DNA of 10,666 nucleotides from positions 1 through 10,666 of the forward strand of contig JAITLF010000321.1 in the NCBI GenBank assembly GCA_031278025.1. The letters run 5' to 3'. Below, in pieces: positions 2,960 to 9,226 of the stretch. Source of the DNA: Treponema sp. (GTDB lineage: Bacteria; Spirochaetota; Spirochaetia; Treponematales; Breznakiellaceae). The translations under genes were made by a program, and so were the position numbers. The stretch's first letter is position 1. Each line of letters starts with the position of its first letter. The notes under the pieces were generated by a model that worked only from the letters and a program-made list of their open reading frames with translations, did no database searches and was not told the origin of the DNA.

Positions 2960-4120
2960 ATGAAAAGAACAGCACTTGCGGGGATATTGCTCCTCTGCGT
3001 CTTGGCCGCGCTGTCGGCGGGGGGCGGAAAGGAAAATGTCATCAAAATCGGATTTAACATCCCTTTGACCGGGGACTCGCCCATGATTGGGGAAGGGTCC
3101 CGGTATGCCGGAGAGATCGTCAAAAAGCGGATCAATGGTCAGGGAGGGCTGGAAGTTAAAGGTCAAAAGTATATGGTGGATTTCGTTTATGTGGATAACG
3201 AACTCAAGGCGGAATCCGCTATTCAGGCGGCTTACCGGCTTATAGAGCAGGATAAGGTCCTGGCGGTCGTGGGTCCCCAGGGTTCTGGCCGGGCTATTCC
3301 GGCGGCTCAAATCAACAACGATAACCGTACCCCTATGGTGTCCGCCTGGTCAACCAACCCGGATACGACGAAAAACCGGCCCTATGTGTTCCGGGCCTGT
3401 TTCCTGGACCCCTTTCAGGCGCCGGTAGCGGTGAAATTCGCCAGGGAACAGTTTAAGGTAGCCAAAACAGCCATCCTCTACAATCTGGAAGACGATTATT
3501 CCAAGACCCTGGCGGAACTTTTCCGGGATAACTGGGAAAAGGAGAACGGCGCCGGATCCGTGGTGGTATTCGACAGTTTTGGTCAAAAGGACCAGGATTT
3601 TTCCGTCCAACTGACCCGTATTGTCAATTCCGGAGCGGAGATGCTCTATCTTCCGGCTTATTACAACCATGTCGCCCTGATTGTGCCTCAGGCCCAGGAC
3701 TTGGGCTGGACCAAACCCATCATGGGAAGCGATTCTTGGGGCTCTGCGGACCTCATTTCCCTAAGCAAAGGATCCGTGGAAGGCTACTACTTCACCACTC
3801 ATTACGCCGCAGCCGGTGCGGTGGGCAAGACAAAAGAATTCATCGACGAATATACCGCCACGTATGGCTATGTTCCCGATGACGTGGCGGCCCTGACCTT
3901 TGATGCGGTGAATATCATCCTTCAAGCCATCCAGAACGCGGGGCTTTCGGGCAACCTCCAGCAGGACCGGGACAACATCCGTACTGCAATCGCGGCCATC
4001 AAAAATTACAACGGCATTACCGGAAATATGACCTTTAACGAAAGCGGTGACCCGGAAAAAGACGCCGTGGTTGTGCGGATTGTTAACGGGGAATTTACCT
4101 TCGTAACCAGCCTGCACTAA
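2960..4120 (+). CDS. livK: Branched-chain/amino-acid ABC transporter substrate-binding protein
   Basis: A 386-residue extracytoplasmic binding protein with a type I periplasmic fold, capturing a branched-chain or related amino acid for the membrane parts encoded next. CGGAGG six bases before the ATG fixes the start. Residues 1-20 are a signal peptide (MKR, then a hydrophobic core to about LAALSA). Family landmarks: IGFNIPLTGD (30-39), AVVGPQGSGRAIPAAQI (102-118), SAWSTNP (128-134) and VFRACFLDPFQAP (143-155), followed by the second lobe with YNLEDDYSK and LPAYYNH. The leader ends LSAGGGKE: it looks like a lipobox with Gly where the acylated Cys should be, and the only Cys (13) is inside the hydrophobic core, so the protein is probably soluble or signal-peptidase-I processed. 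First gene of the operon. The true ligand cannot be deduced from sequence alone. Confidence 0.95.
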   Translation: MKRTALAGILLLCVLAALSAGGGKENVIKIGFNIPLTGDSPMIGEGSRYAGEIVKKRINGQGGLEVKGQKYMVDFVYVDNELKAESAIQAAYRLIEQDKVLAVVGPQGSGRAIPAAQINNDNRTPMVSAWSTNPDTTKNRPYVFRACFLDPFQAPVAVKFAREQFKVAKTAILYNLEDDYSKTLAELFRDNWEKENGAGSVVVFDSFGQKDQDFSVQLTRIVNSGAEMLYLPAYYNHVALIVPQAQDLGWTKPIMGSDSWGSADLISLSKGSVEGYYFTTHYAAAGAVGKTKEFIDEYTATYGYVPDDVAALTFDAVNIILQAIQNAGLSGNLQQDRDNIRTAIAAIKNYNGITGNMTFNESGDPEKDAVVVRIVNGEFTFVTSLH

Positions 4121-4128
4121 AACACTGC

Positions 4129-4148
4129 CCCCGGGTTAAAGCCCGGGG
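4129..4148 (+). promoter_or_regulatory. Intercistronic hairpin between livK and livH
   Basis: CCCCGGG-TTAAAG-CCCGGGG, a GC-rich perfect 7-bp stem 8 bases past the livK stop, directly followed by the livH ribosome site GAGGAGGT (4151-4158) and no T-run. Such hairpins usually protect the upstream message and let binding protein exceed membrane components; here this is inferred. Confidence 0.6.
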
Positions 4149-4164
4149 TTGAGGAGGTGTCCCG

Positions 4165-5076
4165 ATGTTGACCACTTTTTTACAGAATGTATTTAACGCC
4201 CTCCAGTGGGGAAGTTTCTATTCAATGATCGCCTTGGGATACTGTTTGGTATACGGGGTGCTGCGGCTCATCAACTTCGCCCACGGCGATATTTTTATGA
4301 TCGCCTGCTACATTGCCTTTTTCGCCGCCACCGCCCTCCTGGGCGCGTTGGGCGGGGCGGGCTGGGGGGCCTTCATCCTTACCCTGGCACTGACCATGTT
4401 GGGGACGGCGCTTCTGGGGGTCACCATAGAGAGGGTGGCCTACCGTCCCCTCAGGCGGAAAGGAGTAAACCGCCTTTATGTGGTGATCACCGCTCTAATG
4501 GTGGGGTTCATTCTGGAAAATGGGAACCTCGCGATCCTCGGGGCCAGTTCCAAGCGTTTCCCCGATATTATCGACAAGGAACTTTGGCAGATAGGTTCCC
4601 TGGTGCTTACCAACCTTAAGGTACTGGTAATTATTGCGGCCTTCGCGGTTTTCGGCATCCTGCAATTTATCGTGCGGAAAACCCTGTTCGGCATGTCCAT
4701 GCGGGCCGTCTCGTATGATAAATTTGCCATCCCCCTGATGGGAATTCCGGTGAACCGGGTCATCACCTTTACATTTGCTCTTGGGTCGTCCCTTGCGGCG
4801 GTGGCGGGCATCCTGTTCGGCATGTCCTATCCTGTGCTGGACCCTTACATGGGGATGATCATCGGATGGAAAGCCTTTATCGCCGCCGTGGTCGGGGGTA
4901 TAGGCGATATAAAGGGAGCTTTCCTGGGGGGCTTTATTTTGGGGTTCATCGAAATTTTTGTAACCGCAGTCTTCCCATCAAGTTTTAAGGACCTGATTTC
5001 CTTTGTCATCCTTTTGATCATTCTGGTCATCAAGCCTACGGGATTTTTCGGCGTACCCAGAAGCGCCAAGATTTAG
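4165..5076 (+). CDS. livH: Branched-chain amino-acid ABC transporter permease LivH
   Basis: A 303-residue inner-membrane permease, one half of the translocation channel with LivM. GAGGAGGT six bases upstream fixes the ATG. The N-terminal signature GYCLVYGVLRLINFAHGD (25-42) is the classic LivH motif. The protein is almost entirely hydrophobic helices (about eight). The C-terminal block contains AAVVGGIGDIKGAFLGG, the cytoplasmic coupling loop that meets the ATPases, and ends IKPTGFFG as is usual. Length fits the family (about 290-310). It follows livK by 44 bases and precedes livM by 8, within one operon. Confidence 0.97.
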   Translation: MLTTFLQNVFNALQWGSFYSMIALGYCLVYGVLRLINFAHGDIFMIACYIAFFAATALLGALGGAGWGAFILTLALTMLGTALLGVTIERVAYRPLRRKGVNRLYVVITALMVGFILENGNLAILGASSKRFPDIIDKELWQIGSLVLTNLKVLVIIAAFAVFGILQFIVRKTLFGMSMRAVSYDKFAIPLMGIPVNRVITFTFALGSSLAAVAGILFGMSYPVLDPYMGMIIGWKAFIAAVVGGIGDIKGAFLGGFILGFIEIFVTAVFPSSFKDLISFVILLIILVIKPTGFFGVPRSAKI

Positions 5077-5084
5077 GAGCGGAT

Positions 5085-6164
5085 ATGGCTTTACCAAACG
5101 AAAAAAACAAGAGCGCTGTCCTGCTCATAGCCCTTCTTACCGGCGGCATGGCGGCCGTTACGATCCTCGCCACCCTGGGAATAATCAATCAATATATCCA
5201 GAGCGTGATGATGTCCATAGGAATCAACATCATCTTTGCCTCAAGCCTCAATGTCGTGAACGGCTATATGGGAGAATTTTCCTGTGGCCACGCGGGATTC
5301 ATGGCGGTGGGGGCCTATGTTTCATCGGTACTCTCCCTCATCCTCTTTACCGAAAACAAATTTACCGGCGGCCCCCTGCTTCCGCCTCAGACGGCAATAG
5401 CGCTTTTTCCGGCGGTCATCGTCATCGGGGGCTTCGCGGCGGCGGCGGCGGGACTCCTGGTGGCCCTCCCGTCTTTCAAGACACGGGATGACTACCTGGC
5501 TATCATCACCATCGCGGCCAACTACATCATCATGACCGCCATCAATAACCTGGAGATAGTCGGCGCCAGCCGGGGGCTTATGGGGATGAAAGGAGCCATC
5601 TTCGCCATGTCGGACCTTATCCCCCTGCCCTGGATACTCCTGTGGATCATGGCCTTTGTGGTGATCTGCGTAACCGCCATCAAGCGCCTTATGGGGTCGG
5701 TATTGGGCAAAGGGATTTCCGCCATCAGATACGACGAGATTTCCGCGGAGATCATGAGCGTGGACACCAATAGGATGAAGCTTCTGGCCTTCATGTTTTC
5801 TTCCGGCCTTGCGGGCATAGCCGGAGGGCTTTTCGCCCACATGATGGGGTTCATCAACCCCCAGTCCTTCAACATCATGAAATCCACCGAGGGCATGGTG
5901 ATGGTCTACCTGGGCGGTATGGGGTCTCTGAGCGGTTCGGTCCTGTCGGCGGTGCTGTTCACCTTCCTTTTGGAGCTGCTCCGGCCATTGCAAATCCTCA
6001 AGTGGGTATTCATCCCCCTGCTCCTCATCCTGCTCATGCAATTCCGGCCCGAAGGGCTCATGGGGAACCGGGAACTTTCGGGCATGGCGGTTTTCAGTCG
6101 GTTTTTGGGGAAGGGCGGAACCAGGGCGAAGGAGGCGCCGGATCATGAACGAGTACCATCTTGA
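5085..6164 (+). CDS. livM: Branched-chain amino-acid ABC transporter permease LivM
   Basis: A 359-residue inner-membrane permease partnering LivH. The ribosome site AGGAG (5075-5079) overlaps the livH stop TAG, so translation is probably coupled. Landmarks: LNVVNGYMGEFSCGHAGF (55-72; family form GYAGQLSLGHAAF, here with a Cys), then a long central domain with AIRYDEISAEIMSVD, LAFMFSSGLAGIAGG and the coupling segment YLGGMGSLSGSVLSA, ending near QFRPEGLMG. Roughly ten hydrophobic helices. The last 18 residues are polar and unconserved in look and overlap the livG start by 20 bases. Confidence 0.97.
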   Translation: MALPNEKNKSAVLLIALLTGGMAAVTILATLGIINQYIQSVMMSIGINIIFASSLNVVNGYMGEFSCGHAGFMAVGAYVSSVLSLILFTENKFTGGPLLPPQTAIALFPAVIVIGGFAAAAAGLLVALPSFKTRDDYLAIITIAANYIIMTAINNLEIVGASRGLMGMKGAIFAMSDLIPLPWILLWIMAFVVICVTAIKRLMGSVLGKGISAIRYDEISAEIMSVDTNRMKLLAFMFSSGLAGIAGGLFAHMMGFINPQSFNIMKSTEGMVMVYLGGMGSLSGSVLSAVLFTFLLELLRPLQILKWVFIPLLLILLMQFRPEGLMGNRELSGMAVFSRFLGKGGTRAKEAPDHERVPS

Positions 6165-6918
6165 ACTCAGGAACCTGAGCCATCGTTTCGGCGGCCTCCA
6201 GGCGTTGACCGACATCAACCTGGAATTAAAACACGGGGACATAGCCGGGCTCATAGGCCCCAATGGGGCGGGAAAGACCACCGTCTTTAACCTGGTAAGC
6301 GGGTTCTATGTGCCTTCTGAAGGGGACATACTCCTTAAGGGGGTACGGATCAACGCCAGAAAGCCCCACGAAATAGCTTCCATGAAAATCGGGAGGACCT
6401 TTCAGAATATACGGCTGTGGAGCGAGATGACGGTGTTGGACAACATACGCATAGCCCAGCATTACCGCCTGGGGTACAACGCGGCGGAGGTGTTCTTCAA
6501 GACCAGGCGCTACCGGGAACGGGAAGCGGAGATCACCCGGTCGGCGCGGGAACTGCTTGAGGCGTTTCACCTGGCGGACCTGGCGGAGGAATATCCCCGG
6601 AACCTGCCGTACGGGATACAGCGCAGGGTGGAAATAGCCCGGGCCCTGTCCTTACAGCCGGAACTCCTCATGCTGGACGAGCCTGCGGCGGGGCTTAGTA
6701 CCGCAGATGTCTCCGAGCTTATCGACTATATCAACTGGATTCACGATACCTTCAAGCTTACCATCTGGATGATCGAACACCAGATGGAAGTGATCATGTC
6801 CTTGTGCCGTACGATACAGGTGATCGATTTCGGCAAAGAGATAGCCAAAGGGACGCCGGAAGCAATCAGGAGCAATCCGGAAGTTATCAAAGCCTACCTG
6901 GGGGAAGGAACGATATGA
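6145..6918 (+). CDS. livG: Branched-chain amino-acid ABC transporter ATPase LivG
   Basis: A 257-residue cytoplasmic ATPase that pairs with LivF to drive import. The start lies inside the livM end (20-base overlap), with AAGGAGG nine bases upstream. Walker A GPNGAGKTT (38-46), Q-loop TFQNIRL (85-91, Gln87), signature LPYGIQRRVE (154-163), Walker B LLMLDEP (174-180), switch His212 in EHQMEV. The ABC signature LPYGIQ departs from LSGGQ, but LivG proteins commonly read L-S/A-YG-QQ, so only the Pro and Ile are unusual. Length and the end (KAYLGE) are normal for LivG. Confidence 0.97.
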   Translation: MNEYHLELRNLSHRFGGLQALTDINLELKHGDIAGLIGPNGAGKTTVFNLVSGFYVPSEGDILLKGVRINARKPHEIASMKIGRTFQNIRLWSEMTVLDNIRIAQHYRLGYNAAEVFFKTRRYREREAEITRSARELLEAFHLADLAEEYPRNLPYGIQRRVEIARALSLQPELLMLDEPAAGLSTADVSELIDYINWIHDTFKLTIWMIEHQMEVIMSLCRTIQVIDFGKEIAKGTPEAIRSNPEVIKAYLGEGTI

Positions 6919-6945
6919 ATCATATACACAACCGGGAGCGCGGTC

Positions 6946-7686
6946 ATGCTGCTTGAAGTTCACCAATTAAAGGCGTCCTACGGGAACATTGAAGCCCTCC
7001 ACGGTGTTTCCTTTGCCATAGACAAGGGGGAGATCGTTACCCTCATCGGCGCTAACGGCGCGGGAAAGACCTCGACCCTCCTGAGCCTGGCCCGGCTTCC
7101 GCAGCCTGAAGCGCCGGCGGTCTCAGGCGGGGATATTCTCTACGAGGGGAAGAGCATACTTAAAACCGAACCCCATGTCCTCATACAGAAGAAGATGATG
7201 GCCTTGGTTCCGGAAGGCAGGCATATTTTTGGGAACCTGACGGTACAGGAAAACCTGATGATTGCCTCCTTCCCCCACCGGAAGGAGGTGAACCGGGAGG
7301 TTATTACCGGGGAAATCCAGGAACTGGTGTACAGCCTCTTTCCCCGGCTCTATGAGCGGCGGAAACAGCGGGGGGAGCTTTTGAGCGGCGGGGAACAGCA
7401 GATGCTGGCGGTGGGCCGGGCTCTGATGACCGGCAGCGAATTCATCATGCTGGATGAGCCTTCCATGGGCCTGGCGCCGAAACTGATGTACGAGATGTTC
7501 CGGGCCTTACGGCAGCTAAACTTTGTCAAGCATATCACCATCCTGGTGGTGGAGCAGAACGCCAAGGTAGCCCTTGATTTCGCAAGCCGGGGCTATGTCC
7601 TCAAGACCGGGGAAATCATCGCATGGGGAACTTCGGAGGAACTGGCGGCCAACGCGGACGTAAAGAAAGCGTACCTGGGCGGCTAA
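6946..7686 (+). CDS. livF: Branched-chain amino-acid ABC transporter ATPase LivF
   Basis: A 246-residue ATPase, the second motor subunit. The start MLLEVHQLKASYG at 6946 is supported by GGGAG (6934-6938) seven bases upstream, 27 bases after livG. Walker A GANGAGKTS (35-43), the LivF-typical VPEGRHIF (88-95), signature LLSGGEQQ (145-152), Walker B FIMLDEP (166-172), and VVEQNAKVAL (201-210), where LivF proteins have EQN in place of the switch His. A short insert (PQPEAPAVS, 52-60) lengthens the loop after Walker A. It ends KKAYLGG as the family does. Its TAA overlaps the stop codon of the convergent nudC gene by sharing CTAA. Confidence 0.97.
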   Translation: MLLEVHQLKASYGNIEALHGVSFAIDKGEIVTLIGANGAGKTSTLLSLARLPQPEAPAVSGGDILYEGKSILKTEPHVLIQKKMMALVPEGRHIFGNLTVQENLMIASFPHRKEVNREVITGEIQELVYSLFPRLYERRKQRGELLSGGEQQMLAVGRALMTGSEFIMLDEPSMGLAPKLMYEMFRALRQLNFVKHITILVVEQNAKVALDFASRGYVLKTGEIIAWGTSEELAANADVKKAYLGG

Positions 7687-8549
7687 AGCCGATAACAGCC
7701 GCCGTCCTTTAGCCATTGATTGATAAGATACCGGGCTACCGAGCCGGGACCGGGCAGTTTCGGCAAGGCATCCCGGCGGAACCAGCGGGCATCTTCGATT
7801 TCCTCGCCGTCGGGGCAAAGCTCTCCCCGGACATGGCGGGCGGTAAAACCCAGCATCAGAGCGTTGGGAAAAGGCCAGGGCTGGGATGCCGCGTAGCGTA
7901 TGTTACGGATATCAATTCCCGCCTCTTCCCGGACTTCCCGTTCCACGGTGGTTTCCAGATTTTCCCCGGCTTCGTTAAACCCCGCGATAAGGCTGTAGAC
8001 GCCGCCAGGGAACTTTTTGTTGTGGGCCAGGAGAACTTCGTCCCGGTCGTTGGTAACCAGAACAATGACAGCCGGGGAAATCCGCGGGTACTCCCGGCGT
8101 CCGCAAACCGGGCAGAGCCGGGCAAGTTCGTCTGGGGCGTCGATGTTGCGGCCTCCGCAGGCGCCGCAGTAGACCGATTCCCGCCGCCACTGCATGACAT
8201 GGTATGCCCGAAAAAAGCGGCCTATGTCCTCCTGGCCGGAGAACACGCCGTGTTCCGCAGCGGGAAGGGAACGGCGTATATGGACAGCCTGCCATCCGGC
8301 GGGCAGGGGGACGCCGTCGTCCAGGAACAAGCCCCCTATCACCCCTCCCCCGTGGGTTTCGGGGATCTCAAAATAATCCGTTCCCGCGCCCGTCCATTCG
8401 CCGGGAAGCAGGCCCCGGTCTATTCCGTGAAAAAGAAACCCGCCGCCGGTTTTTAGGGAAGCCTCAGCGGCTTCAGGGAAAGAATCCGGAACCGCCAGGG
8501 TATCCCCCCGGAAAACAAACACCGTCGAAGCACAAACACCGTCCACCAT
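7683..8549 (-). CDS. nudC: NudC-type NUDIX hydrolase (NADH pyrophosphatase / NAD-cap decapping)
   Basis: Cytoplasmic pyrophosphatase that splits NADH to NMNH and AMP and, in E. coli, removes NAD caps from RNA 5' ends. With the start at 8549 it has 288 residues: an N-terminal NudC-like domain (1-~115), zinc ribbon Cys128-x2-Cys131 and Cys146-x2-Cys149, then a complete NUDIX box from Gly190 (G-x5-E-x7-REVREEAGI, to about 212) and the NudC signature SQPWPFP (222-228), which separates NudC from other NUDIX enzymes. E. coli NudC has 257 residues. The frame is open to an ATG at 8621 (312 residues) and has another at 8561. I chose 8549 because GAGGG (8559-8555) precedes it by five bases and the family-like ASTVFVFRGD begins soon after; the upstream starts lack ribosome sites. 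Convergent with livF, stops overlapping, no terminator between. Confidence 0.92.
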   Translation of the reverse strand: MVDGVCASTVFVFRGDTLAVPDSFPEAAEASLKTGGGFLFHGIDRGLLPGEWTGAGTDYFEIPETHGGGVIGGLFLDDGVPLPAGWQAVHIRRSLPAAEHGVFSGQEDIGRFFRAYHVMQWRRESVYCGACGGRNIDAPDELARLCPVCGRREYPRISPAVIVLVTNDRDEVLLAHNKKFPGGVYSLIAGFNEAGENLETTVEREVREEAGIDIRNIRYAASQPWPFPNALMLGFTARHVRGELCPDGEEIEDARWFRRDALPKLPGPGSVARYLINQWLKDGGCYRL

Positions 8550-8596
8550 ACACGCCCTCATGCCATCATCATAGTGTGCCAGATCCCATCTGACTA

Positions 8597-8655
8597 GGAA
8601 CCTGCCGCAGGGCGAGCGCATTAGACATTCTTAGGGATCAGCCGCCACAGGTTCC
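8597..8655. repeat. Spaced inverted repeat upstream of nudC
   Basis: GGAACCTG (8597-8604) and CAGGTTCC (8648-8655) are perfect inverted copies 43 bases apart, spanning the alternative nudC start at 8621. It could be a looping operator or a remnant boundary; nothing in the sequence decides. Confidence 0.3.
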
Positions 8656-8787
8656 CTTACCGCCGCCGGCGGCTACGGCGGCAACAGCAACGGCACGATC
8701 GGCGGCAACGGCGGCGGCTACGACGCCTCGCCAGGCTTCATCATGATGTCCGGCGCGGTTATTGGCGGCGGTACTGCCGGCAACTGA
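8635..8787 (+). pseudogene. Gly-rich protein relic
   Basis: After an in-frame TAG at 8632, the frame is open for 50 codons to TGA 8785-8787 and reads as a low-complexity Gly/Ala/Asn/Thr peptide (GGYGGNSNG, GGNGGGYDASPG, MMSGAVIGGGTAGN). It has no usable start. The GGGTAGN / SGAVIGGG wording resembles the short repeats of Gly-rich surface or passenger proteins, so this may be the truncated tail of such a gene. The very GC-rich codons differ from the neighbours. A chance frame in GC-rich DNA is the alternative. Confidence 0.35.
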
Positions 8788-8810: not shown

Positions 8811-8822
8811 AAACCTGGGTTT
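8811..8822. repeat. Left boundary palindrome AAACCTGGGTTT
   Basis: Near-perfect 12-bp palindrome at the left end of the 21-bp repeat array. It matches the boundary at 9000-9011 except for one base. Confidence 0.5.
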
Positions 8823-9002
8823 TTGCGCCGCAAAAATGTTTTTCCGCAGCGCAAAAGTGTTTTTCCGCAGCGCAAAAATGTTTTTCCGCAGCGCAAAAGT
8901 GTTTTTCCGCAACGCAAAAGTATTTTTGCGCTGCACAAAAGTGTTTTTCCGCTGCGGAAAAGTGTTTTTCCGCAACGCAAAAGTATTTTTGCGCTGCACA
9001 AA
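8820..9002. repeat. Tandem array of nine ~21-bp palindromic units
   Basis: Units start at 8820 (19 bp), 8839, 8860, 8881, 8902, 8923, 8944, 8965 (seven of exactly 21 bp) and 8986 (17 bp, partial). Each is T5, a 9-base GC core, A4-5, then RTR. The core is CCGCAGCGC, CCGCAACGC, GCGCTGCAC or CCGCTGCGG. Unit 1 (TTTTTGCG-C-CGCAAAAA) and unit 7 (TTTTCCGC-T-GCGGAAAA) are perfect palindromes; the others carry one or two breaks. Units 5-6 and 8-9 are near-identical pairs, so the array grew by block duplication. 21 bp equals two helical turns, so the A/T tracts are in phase and the DNA should be bent. There are no unique spacers, hence not CRISPR. All frames across it are open only because the period is a multiple of three. 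Confidence 0.9.
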
Positions 9003-9011
9003 CCCGGGTTT
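9000..9011. repeat. Right boundary palindrome AAACCCGGGTTT
   Basis: Perfect 12-bp palindrome closing the array, where the ninth unit breaks off. It is the symmetric counterpart of 8811-8822. Confidence 0.55.
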
Positions 9012-9026
9012 CTGATCAATAAACCG

Positions 9027-9060
9027 GGGTCCGGCAACACCGGACCCGGATTTTAATTTT
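9027..9060 (+). terminator. Intrinsic terminator after the array, possibly bidirectional
   Basis: GGGTCCGG (9027-9034), loop CAACA, CCGGACCC (9040-9047), then TTTTAATTTT (9051-9060). The stem can extend with a bulge to CCGG on both sides. On the plus strand this would end a transcript crossing the repeat array. Read leftward, TTTATT follows the same stem, so it can also end the stomatin operon about 105 bases past its stop. Confidence 0.65.
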
Positions 9061-9076
9061 CCATAAGGAGGAAAAT

Positions 9077-9226
9077 ATGGCAGATTGGCTTCTCCCTGCT
9101 CCCCGCGGGGATCTGCCCCGCCACCCCGCCGGGGGGGTTCGAACCCCCCGGAGCCCCGCCGTCGCTATCCTTTTTCCCGGCGCAGTTCCGTCAGCGCCTC
9201 AAGGCCGAAGATATCCTTGGCCTTGA
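9077..9226 (+). pseudogene. Orphan gene start with a perfect ribosome site
   Basis: AAGGAGG (9065-9071) lies five bases before an ATG that opens MADWLLPAPRGDL. The 49-codon frame soon enters GC-rich hairpin sequence and then the antisense of the stomatin gene, so only the first dozen codons look like a gene start. Short Treponema hypotheticals beginning MADW are something I recall but cannot verify here. Most likely it is the 5' stub of a gene cut by rearrangement. Confidence 0.3.
9132..9149. repeat. 18-bp perfect GC palindrome
   Basis: GGGGGGTTCGAACCCCCC, centred on TTCGAA, 16 bases past the stomatin stop. It may help end or protect the leftward stomatin message, but no T-run follows. Neighbouring CCCCGCGGGG is a second palindrome. 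Confidence 0.5.

Follow-up and report, generated by a model that had tools for sequence, protein, structure and literature searches.

A 21-bp palindromic array in a Treponema contig as a probable orphan of a leader-array class associated with MADW/Y genes

The window analyzed here, a 10,666-bp stretch of Treponema sp. DNA (contig JAITLF010000321.1), contains a tandem array of palindromic 21-bp units that we consider, with somewhat better than even confidence, to be an orphan copy of a non-coding class of 21-bp leader arrays usually located directly upstream of MADW/Y genes. MADW/Y is a label coined here for a family of about 220 amino acids whose start is carried by the window. Related arrays occur in other genomes, where they are associated with MADW/Y genes, differ in sequence from locus to locus, keep a fixed period and frequently display dyad symmetry; in the window, the gene itself is absent. 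At intact loci the array would act as a cis-acting leader of its own gene, its useful property presumably being its geometry or its recognition by the product of that gene, and not a motif for one shared regulator. The window copy is probably a relic that is no longer functional.

The window array and its copies

The array extends over 8811-9020 of the forward strand, with a core at 8820-9002. TRF describes it as 8.3 copies of 21 bp at 8829-9002 (86% matches, 0% indels), with an additional 63-bp period, and a repeat search resolves 8 registers whose seven consecutive spacings are all exactly 21. Lag-21 identity reaches 0.90 over 84 bp, compared to a maximum of 0.46 in 200 shuffles of 8811-9020 and of 0.69 in the window outside the array. 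These three approaches confirm the 21-bp array at 8820-9002 proposed in a preliminary description. The units consist of T5 and A4-5 tracts flanking a GC core, and inspection by eye bears out the palindromic units and duplicated blocks also claimed for them: unit 1 measures 19 bp and, like unit 7, is a perfect odd palindrome, and units 5-6 and 8-9 form an identical block. The limits originally assigned located the array correctly and were slightly short, since AAACCTGGGTTT, which begins at 8811, and AAACCCGGGTTT, which begins at about 9000, keep the register of the inner units and widen it to about 8811-9020, an extent to which alignment with the homologous array of contig L002 also contributes. 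The entire array constitutes an inverted repeat with 99-nt arms that are 76% complementary. The view that such a self-complementary, period-locked array fits no known repeat class is likewise supported; CRISPR arrays are defined by a conserved repeat with unrelated spacers, whereas in the window and in the other displayed arrays the entire 21-bp unit recurs.

A two-unit pattern scanned over genomes matched two contigs. The Bacteroidetes match (L001) looks like a chance A/T match and was discarded, while L002, from Treponema sp. Pcl387_bin1, carries a homologous array with the same flanks and different adjoining genes, the homology spanning from 8608 to a hairpin at 9027-9047. The array thus has relatives, in L002 and, as further arrays, in related genomes, and the length variation expected of it is also observed: counted by eye, the window contains ten 12-bp linker blocks and L002 twelve, and the metagenome proteins P0001 and P0002 are translations of window-type elements with 6 and 3 linker blocks, respectively. 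In L002, the 9-bp core that the window units carry as CCGCAGCGC is inverted to its reverse complement, GCGCTGCGG, whereas the AAAARTRTTTTT linker has the same orientation in both. A search for paired AAACCCGGGTTT blocks at a 21-bp distance, allowing up to 2 mismatches, matched 4 of the 195 genomes searched from the same bacterial family. The plasmids and viral contigs searched gave no match to the window array, and Rfam at gathering score returned nothing for the window or for ten array loci, with a permissive Rfam search yielding sub-threshold matches only, mostly to miRNA hairpin families.

The segment common to the window and L002 starts at an ISAs1-type insertion-sequence end (8608-8658, reverse strand), made up of a terminal repeat and the last transposase codons (EPVAADP-stop). 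These 51 bp are 92% identical to two other places in the genome that contains L002, G001 (L005 and L006), and the L006 copy adjoins a transposase C-terminus (NF033564 ISAs1, E 1.6e-22). The window copy would have come on, or been cut by, an ISAs1-ended segment. A short Gly-rich open frame (8638-8787, forward strand), for which no Pfam match and no family were found, is also common to L002. Because the segment has other neighbors in L002 and starts at the ISAs1 end, the local role once considered for the array, insulation between nudC and a stomatin operon, is not supported. The apparent start codon of the longest frame resembling nudC (7683-8621, reverse strand; NUDIX and zinc ribbon) is an ATG located within the ISAs1 end; since the real start probably lies further in, that codon may have been contributed by the insertion sequence. 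Elsewhere in the window, the forward strand encodes a complete branched-chain amino-acid ABC transporter at 2960-7686 (binding protein, two permeases and two ATPases) and a frame of 100 aa that ends in a long stretch rich in Asp and Glu at 294-596, where TRF reports periods of 9-27 bp; the TRF repeats near 470-583 correspond to this acidic-protein stretch.

Downstream of the array, a terminator-like hairpin (GGGTCCGG-CAACA-CCGGACCC; 9027-9047, forward strand) is the same in L002 except for one stem base. A stricter terminator scan did not flag it; the scan that did yielded 4 terminator-like sites in 1 kb versus 1.9 expected. A Shine-Dalgarno sequence (AAGGAGG) and the MADW-type start ATGGCAGATTGG follow at 9065-9088, placing the array directly upstream of a MADW/Y-type start. 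The alignment of P0001 to the window extends through 9092, that is, through the MADW start, which is therefore common to another copy of the element. The MADW/Y family profile finds no match in the window (best E 1.7), so that no intact gene follows the array and the window copy is read as an orphan, with only a gene stub at 9065-9094 (forward strand), delineated by the Shine-Dalgarno/start scan and the P0001 alignment. In L034 (genome G120) and L038 (G184), the array precedes the start ATGGCTGATT, and the window start is of the same kind. Window-like arrangements, with arrays followed by truncated MAD starts (MAD-stop; MADYIPKKDDGEARF...), are seen in L035 (1431-1616) and L038 (393-645), where seemingly only the first codons of a family gene remain.

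Association with the MADW/Y gene family

When the open part of the L034 gene served as protein query, the MADW/Y family was detected in 106 of 195 genomes, and a second protein query detected it in 105 of 195. In a class-wide sample, matches were obtained in 8 of 394 genomes, 6 of which were already among those of the family search. MADW/Y is, in these searches, a multi-copy, unannotated family nearly confined to one spirochaete family; the Treponema label of that family and any gut origin are in part our assumption, as are some of the family names adopted in the analysis. The members tried had no Pfam match at E 0.001 (weak ones only, with one of 55 members at 0.005), five or six members had none in NCBIfam, PHROGs or PADLOC, and the search of solved-structure sequences returned nothing significant. 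The AlphaFold2 model (mean pLDDT 95, pTM 0.66) contains N-terminal helices and a beta domain, and its best Foldseek matches are mostly fibronectin III domains; as modeled, the protein shows N-terminal helices joined to a predicted fibronectin-III-like domain. In the pairs L042/L062 and L041/L107, the N-terminal halves are 64% and 51% identical and the C-terminal halves unrelated (27% and 23%), as if domains had been swapped, and array similarity in this comparison goes with the N-terminal half.

The association between arrays and genes was examined on 139 loci obtained from protein matches (30 + 29 + 80) and picked by protein score, not by array, which were reduced to 122 after duplicate removal, 118 of them with at least 200 bp upstream. 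The loci were ordered by protein score, with partial or already included rows skipped, and therefore do not represent a random sample. When an array is defined by lag-21 identity of at least 0.6 over 84 bp, one is present upstream of 98 of the 118 testable MADW/Y genes, with 20 lacking it, versus downstream of 0 of 116. The best upstream lag is 21 or 42 in 101 of the 118, another value in 2, and no repeat is seen in 15. Of seven tblastn queries in this analysis, one (L065) was translated out of frame, and for several loci, L040, L054, L134 and L197 among them, the called start codon falls inside or at a distance from the real one. The 102 arrays available for characterization average 13 units and stop a median of 45 bp ahead of the called start codon. 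Gene association, one-sidedness and the short gap together suggest a cis-acting leader.

Several samples address the specificity of this association. In 400 kb of contigs chosen for carrying family genes (L239-L258), 34 of 42 tandem-repeat tracts have a best period of 21, 42 or 63, and an array lies upstream of 10 of 11 family genes, which partly overlap the earlier loci; 18 of 29 lag-21 tracts, some of which abut, are not beside a family gene. Intergenic period-21 arrays with no MADW/Y gene reach about 870 bp (L258, 8533-9401; L243, 5028-5837). A family gene was in reach at 7 of 35 inspected repeat loci, 3 of the 35 being without an array by that test, and some gene-less repeat loci may be coding or unrelated repeats. 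Four genomes that lack the family, sampled over 546 kb, yielded no period-21 array; the three contigs flagged there (L270, L271 and L273 of G049, about 1.8 kb each) consist almost wholly of a period-9 repeat. Genome G178, with two family genes, had 0 arrays in the 200 kb sampled, and one of its two family genes has an array (L219); upstream of the family gene of L212, also from G178, the best lag is 44, not 21 or 42 (0.71). Arbitrary contigs of three family-rich genomes yielded 1 array in 117 kb. A looser pattern, AAA-N6-TTT at 21 bp occurring three times, is present in 34 of 195 genomes; the family occurs in 31 of these 34, compared with 106 of 195 overall (Fisher p 8e-7). In some genomes the pattern is unspecific (156 versus 97 control matches in G165, 36 versus 213 in G166, 24 versus 37 in G182).

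Within the family, the motif AAACCYRGGTTT (up to 1 mismatch) is found upstream of 5 of 7 MADW genes versus 1 of 111 other family genes, and its match in the window is perfect; by this motif, the window array belongs to the MADW subfamily. In 1.2 Mb (both strands), a Shine-Dalgarno sequence combined with a MADW start defines 8 distinct sites, after overlapping regex matches were collapsed by hand, and 7 of these 8, including that of the window, have an array upstream.

Shared properties of the arrays

The period of the arrays is fixed, with unit-to-unit steps of 21 bp in 541 of 553 clear cases (647 more steps are unclear). Their sequence, on the other hand, is locus-private even inside one genome: for family members less than 45% identical, array likeness is 0.360 within genomes (105 pairs) and 0.356 between genomes (3928 pairs; p 0.51). 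Such privacy disfavors a single shared regulator. Array similarity increases with protein identity and tracks the N-terminal over the C-terminal half (22 of 164 versus 20 of 609 pairs, which are not independent), a correlation that physical linkage alone could explain. Measured against permuted controls, dyad symmetry lies beyond the 95th percentile in 38 of 102 arrays, with about 5 expected (an earlier scoring gave 47 of 102), and is therefore frequent, not universal. In the L192 array alternate units are reverse complements of each other; alternating inversion was discarded as a general rule, with 5.3% of neighbor pairs versus 2.2% in controls. The controls for the average/gap, covariation, dyad and curvature tests were generated by permuting columns, which keeps period and composition and not every property. 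Within-unit covariation, at first strong (98 of 101 arrays), was dropped as proof of selection after cross-validation: real arrays score 0.672 within and 0.617 across units and three column-permuted controls 0.616-0.629 within and 0.575-0.583 across, and covariation is not claimed because of this similar difference in the controls.

The intrinsic curvature put forward in the preliminary description holds as a prediction for the window copy and not as an essential or shared property. In a wedge model with assumed parameters, the window array bends by 7.8 degrees per turn, at the 99.5th percentile of the 183-bp stretches of the window and the 72nd of its own column-permuted versions. Among 92 related arrays the median is 4.5, versus 3.9 for gene bodies and 4.1 for permuted arrays, and bending was therefore rejected as a common feature. 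The array may conceivably form a structured RNA, as the preliminary description also considered: it folds at -114 kcal/mol (z -10) in the window, but its other strand does so at -118 (z -9.5). Arrays in general are more stable than their permuted counterparts whichever strand is folded (mean z -2.2 sense, -2.0 antisense). The more stable strand is sense in 54 arrays and antisense in 47 (p 0.13), and the sense-strand mismatches of 101 arrays comprise 437 G.T versus 441 A.C; neither measure detects an RNA-strand preference. In the minimum free energy (MFE) structures of 90 arrays, G-U pairs account for 930 of 7562 sense and 802 of 7382 antisense pairs. G.T exceeds A.C in the window element (14 versus 2) and in L002 (17 versus 3), where units are mutual copies, and the single long hairpin of the window array is absent from the L002 fold, a single hairpin loop being seen in 1 of 90 arrays. 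Selection for an RNA hairpin was hence rejected, given matching G.T and A.C counts, no strand bias and a window minus strand that folds equally well; with equal mismatches and folding on both strands, the symmetry is one visible at the DNA level.

Promoter-like sites scoring at least 10 of 12 occur in the 120 bp preceding 10 of 94 arrays; the corresponding figures are 5 of 86 for regions further upstream, 2 of 94 for array interiors and 0.6% for shuffles, and 2 of 58 array-gene gaps of at least 40 bp contain one. At a lower cut-off, such sites are as common in the gap before the gene (8 of 58) as upstream of arrays (17 of 97). Judged by these matches, promoter-like sites appear only modestly enriched upstream of arrays, and transcription through the array is plausible. 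A strict scan detected a terminator between array and gene at 6 of 102 loci; the hairpin of the window is among the sites it overlooks.

Alternative explanations and known systems

The minus strand of the window array can be read through in open frames, and two array translations are entered in JGI as hypothetical proteins, which could indicate that the array codes for a heptapeptide-repeat protein. This is hardly credible, since 43 (sense) and 41 (antisense) of 102 arrays have no fully open frame, much as in column-permuted controls (46%), and the frame set by the gene start is broken in 90 of 102; the arrays as a class are non-coding. It is also highly improbable that array and gene form a type III toxin-antitoxin-like pair in which array RNA restrains the MADW/Y protein. 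Such a pair would account for tandem repeats right upstream of the gene that are distinct at every locus, for the strong foldability of the array RNA and for the promoter-like sites ahead of some arrays. Membership fails, nonetheless, because the terminator between array and gene is mostly absent (6 of 102, with the caveat noted above on the scan) and the fold differs, with nothing like the endoribonuclease ToxN among the inspected solved-structure matches; six members had no PADLOC match, and the sense strand is not preferred.

An operator array, bound on one helix face by a dimeric protein, most likely the gene's own product in a private autoregulatory circuit, is improbable too, even if it agrees with a near-invariant step of 21 bp, equivalent to two turns of B-DNA, with the dyad symmetry of 38 arrays, with the dissimilarity of arrays from the same genome and with the link of array similarity to the N-terminal half. 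The MADW/Y model, with its helices and fibronectin-III-like domain, has no recognized DNA-binding fold, that link may reflect linkage alone between non-independent pairs, and 647 steps are unclear. Rather unlikely as well is a neutral or self-propagating 21-bp minisatellite, produced by replication or repair peculiar to these spirochaetes, for which MADW/Y loci are favored sites. Many arrays lie away from family genes, units may be inverted between element copies (window versus L002), array symmetry shows no RNA-strand preference and within-unit covariation barely exceeds controls, all in keeping with a minisatellite; the one-sided placement (98 of 118 upstream versus 0 of 116 downstream) and a motif, AAACCYRGGTTT, that follows gene subfamily speak against it. 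This leaves arrays that are read through their geometry or by the product of their own gene, or else a neutral process linked to the MADW/Y loci. Returning to the leader reading, we tentatively suggest, while holding it doubtful, that the information conserved is geometry (21-bp unit, dyad symmetry and position) and not sequence, with private arrays read through their shape or by their own products.

No description of the array class or of the MADW/Y family turned up in full-text searches of mainly open-access journal papers. The 21-bp leader-array class is apparently undescribed so far, the newness residing in the class and not in the window copy, itself probably a relic. Recognized by period rather than by sequence, the class would escape the usual searches for repeats and motifs. 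Should the arrays control or restrain their genes, each genome would harbor many private leader-gene pairs, and, if the geometry reading is true, many gene-array pairs per genome that do not cross-talk.

Three known systems offer partial parallels. In Mycoplasma gallisepticum, vlhA promoters carry GAA repeats upstream of a multi-copy gene family (PMC6258824). The likeness lies in many family members with a length-variable tandem repeat just upstream. In vlhA-type phase-variable promoters the number of repeats switches expression, and the length of the 21-bp array does differ between copies; one trinucleotide serves all vlhA loci, whereas MADW/Y arrays have a 21-bp, locus-private unit. The type III toxin-antitoxin loci ToxIN, CptIN and TenpIN feature tandem repeats upstream of a protein gene (PMC4627078), and resemble MADW/Y loci in that repeats lie directly before the gene and are very different between loci; MADW/Y loci differ in predicted protein fold, in a mostly absent terminator and in the lack of an RNA-strand signature. 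REP elements and BIMEs, finally, belong to one sequence family with high copy number per genome (PMC2817692), and share with the arrays regularly spaced palindromic units, in alternating orientation in some arrays such as L192. The difference is that MADW/Y arrays of one genome are unlike each other (0.360 within versus 0.356 between genomes, p 0.51), instead of forming one genome-wide palindrome family, and are placed one-sidedly at a single protein family.
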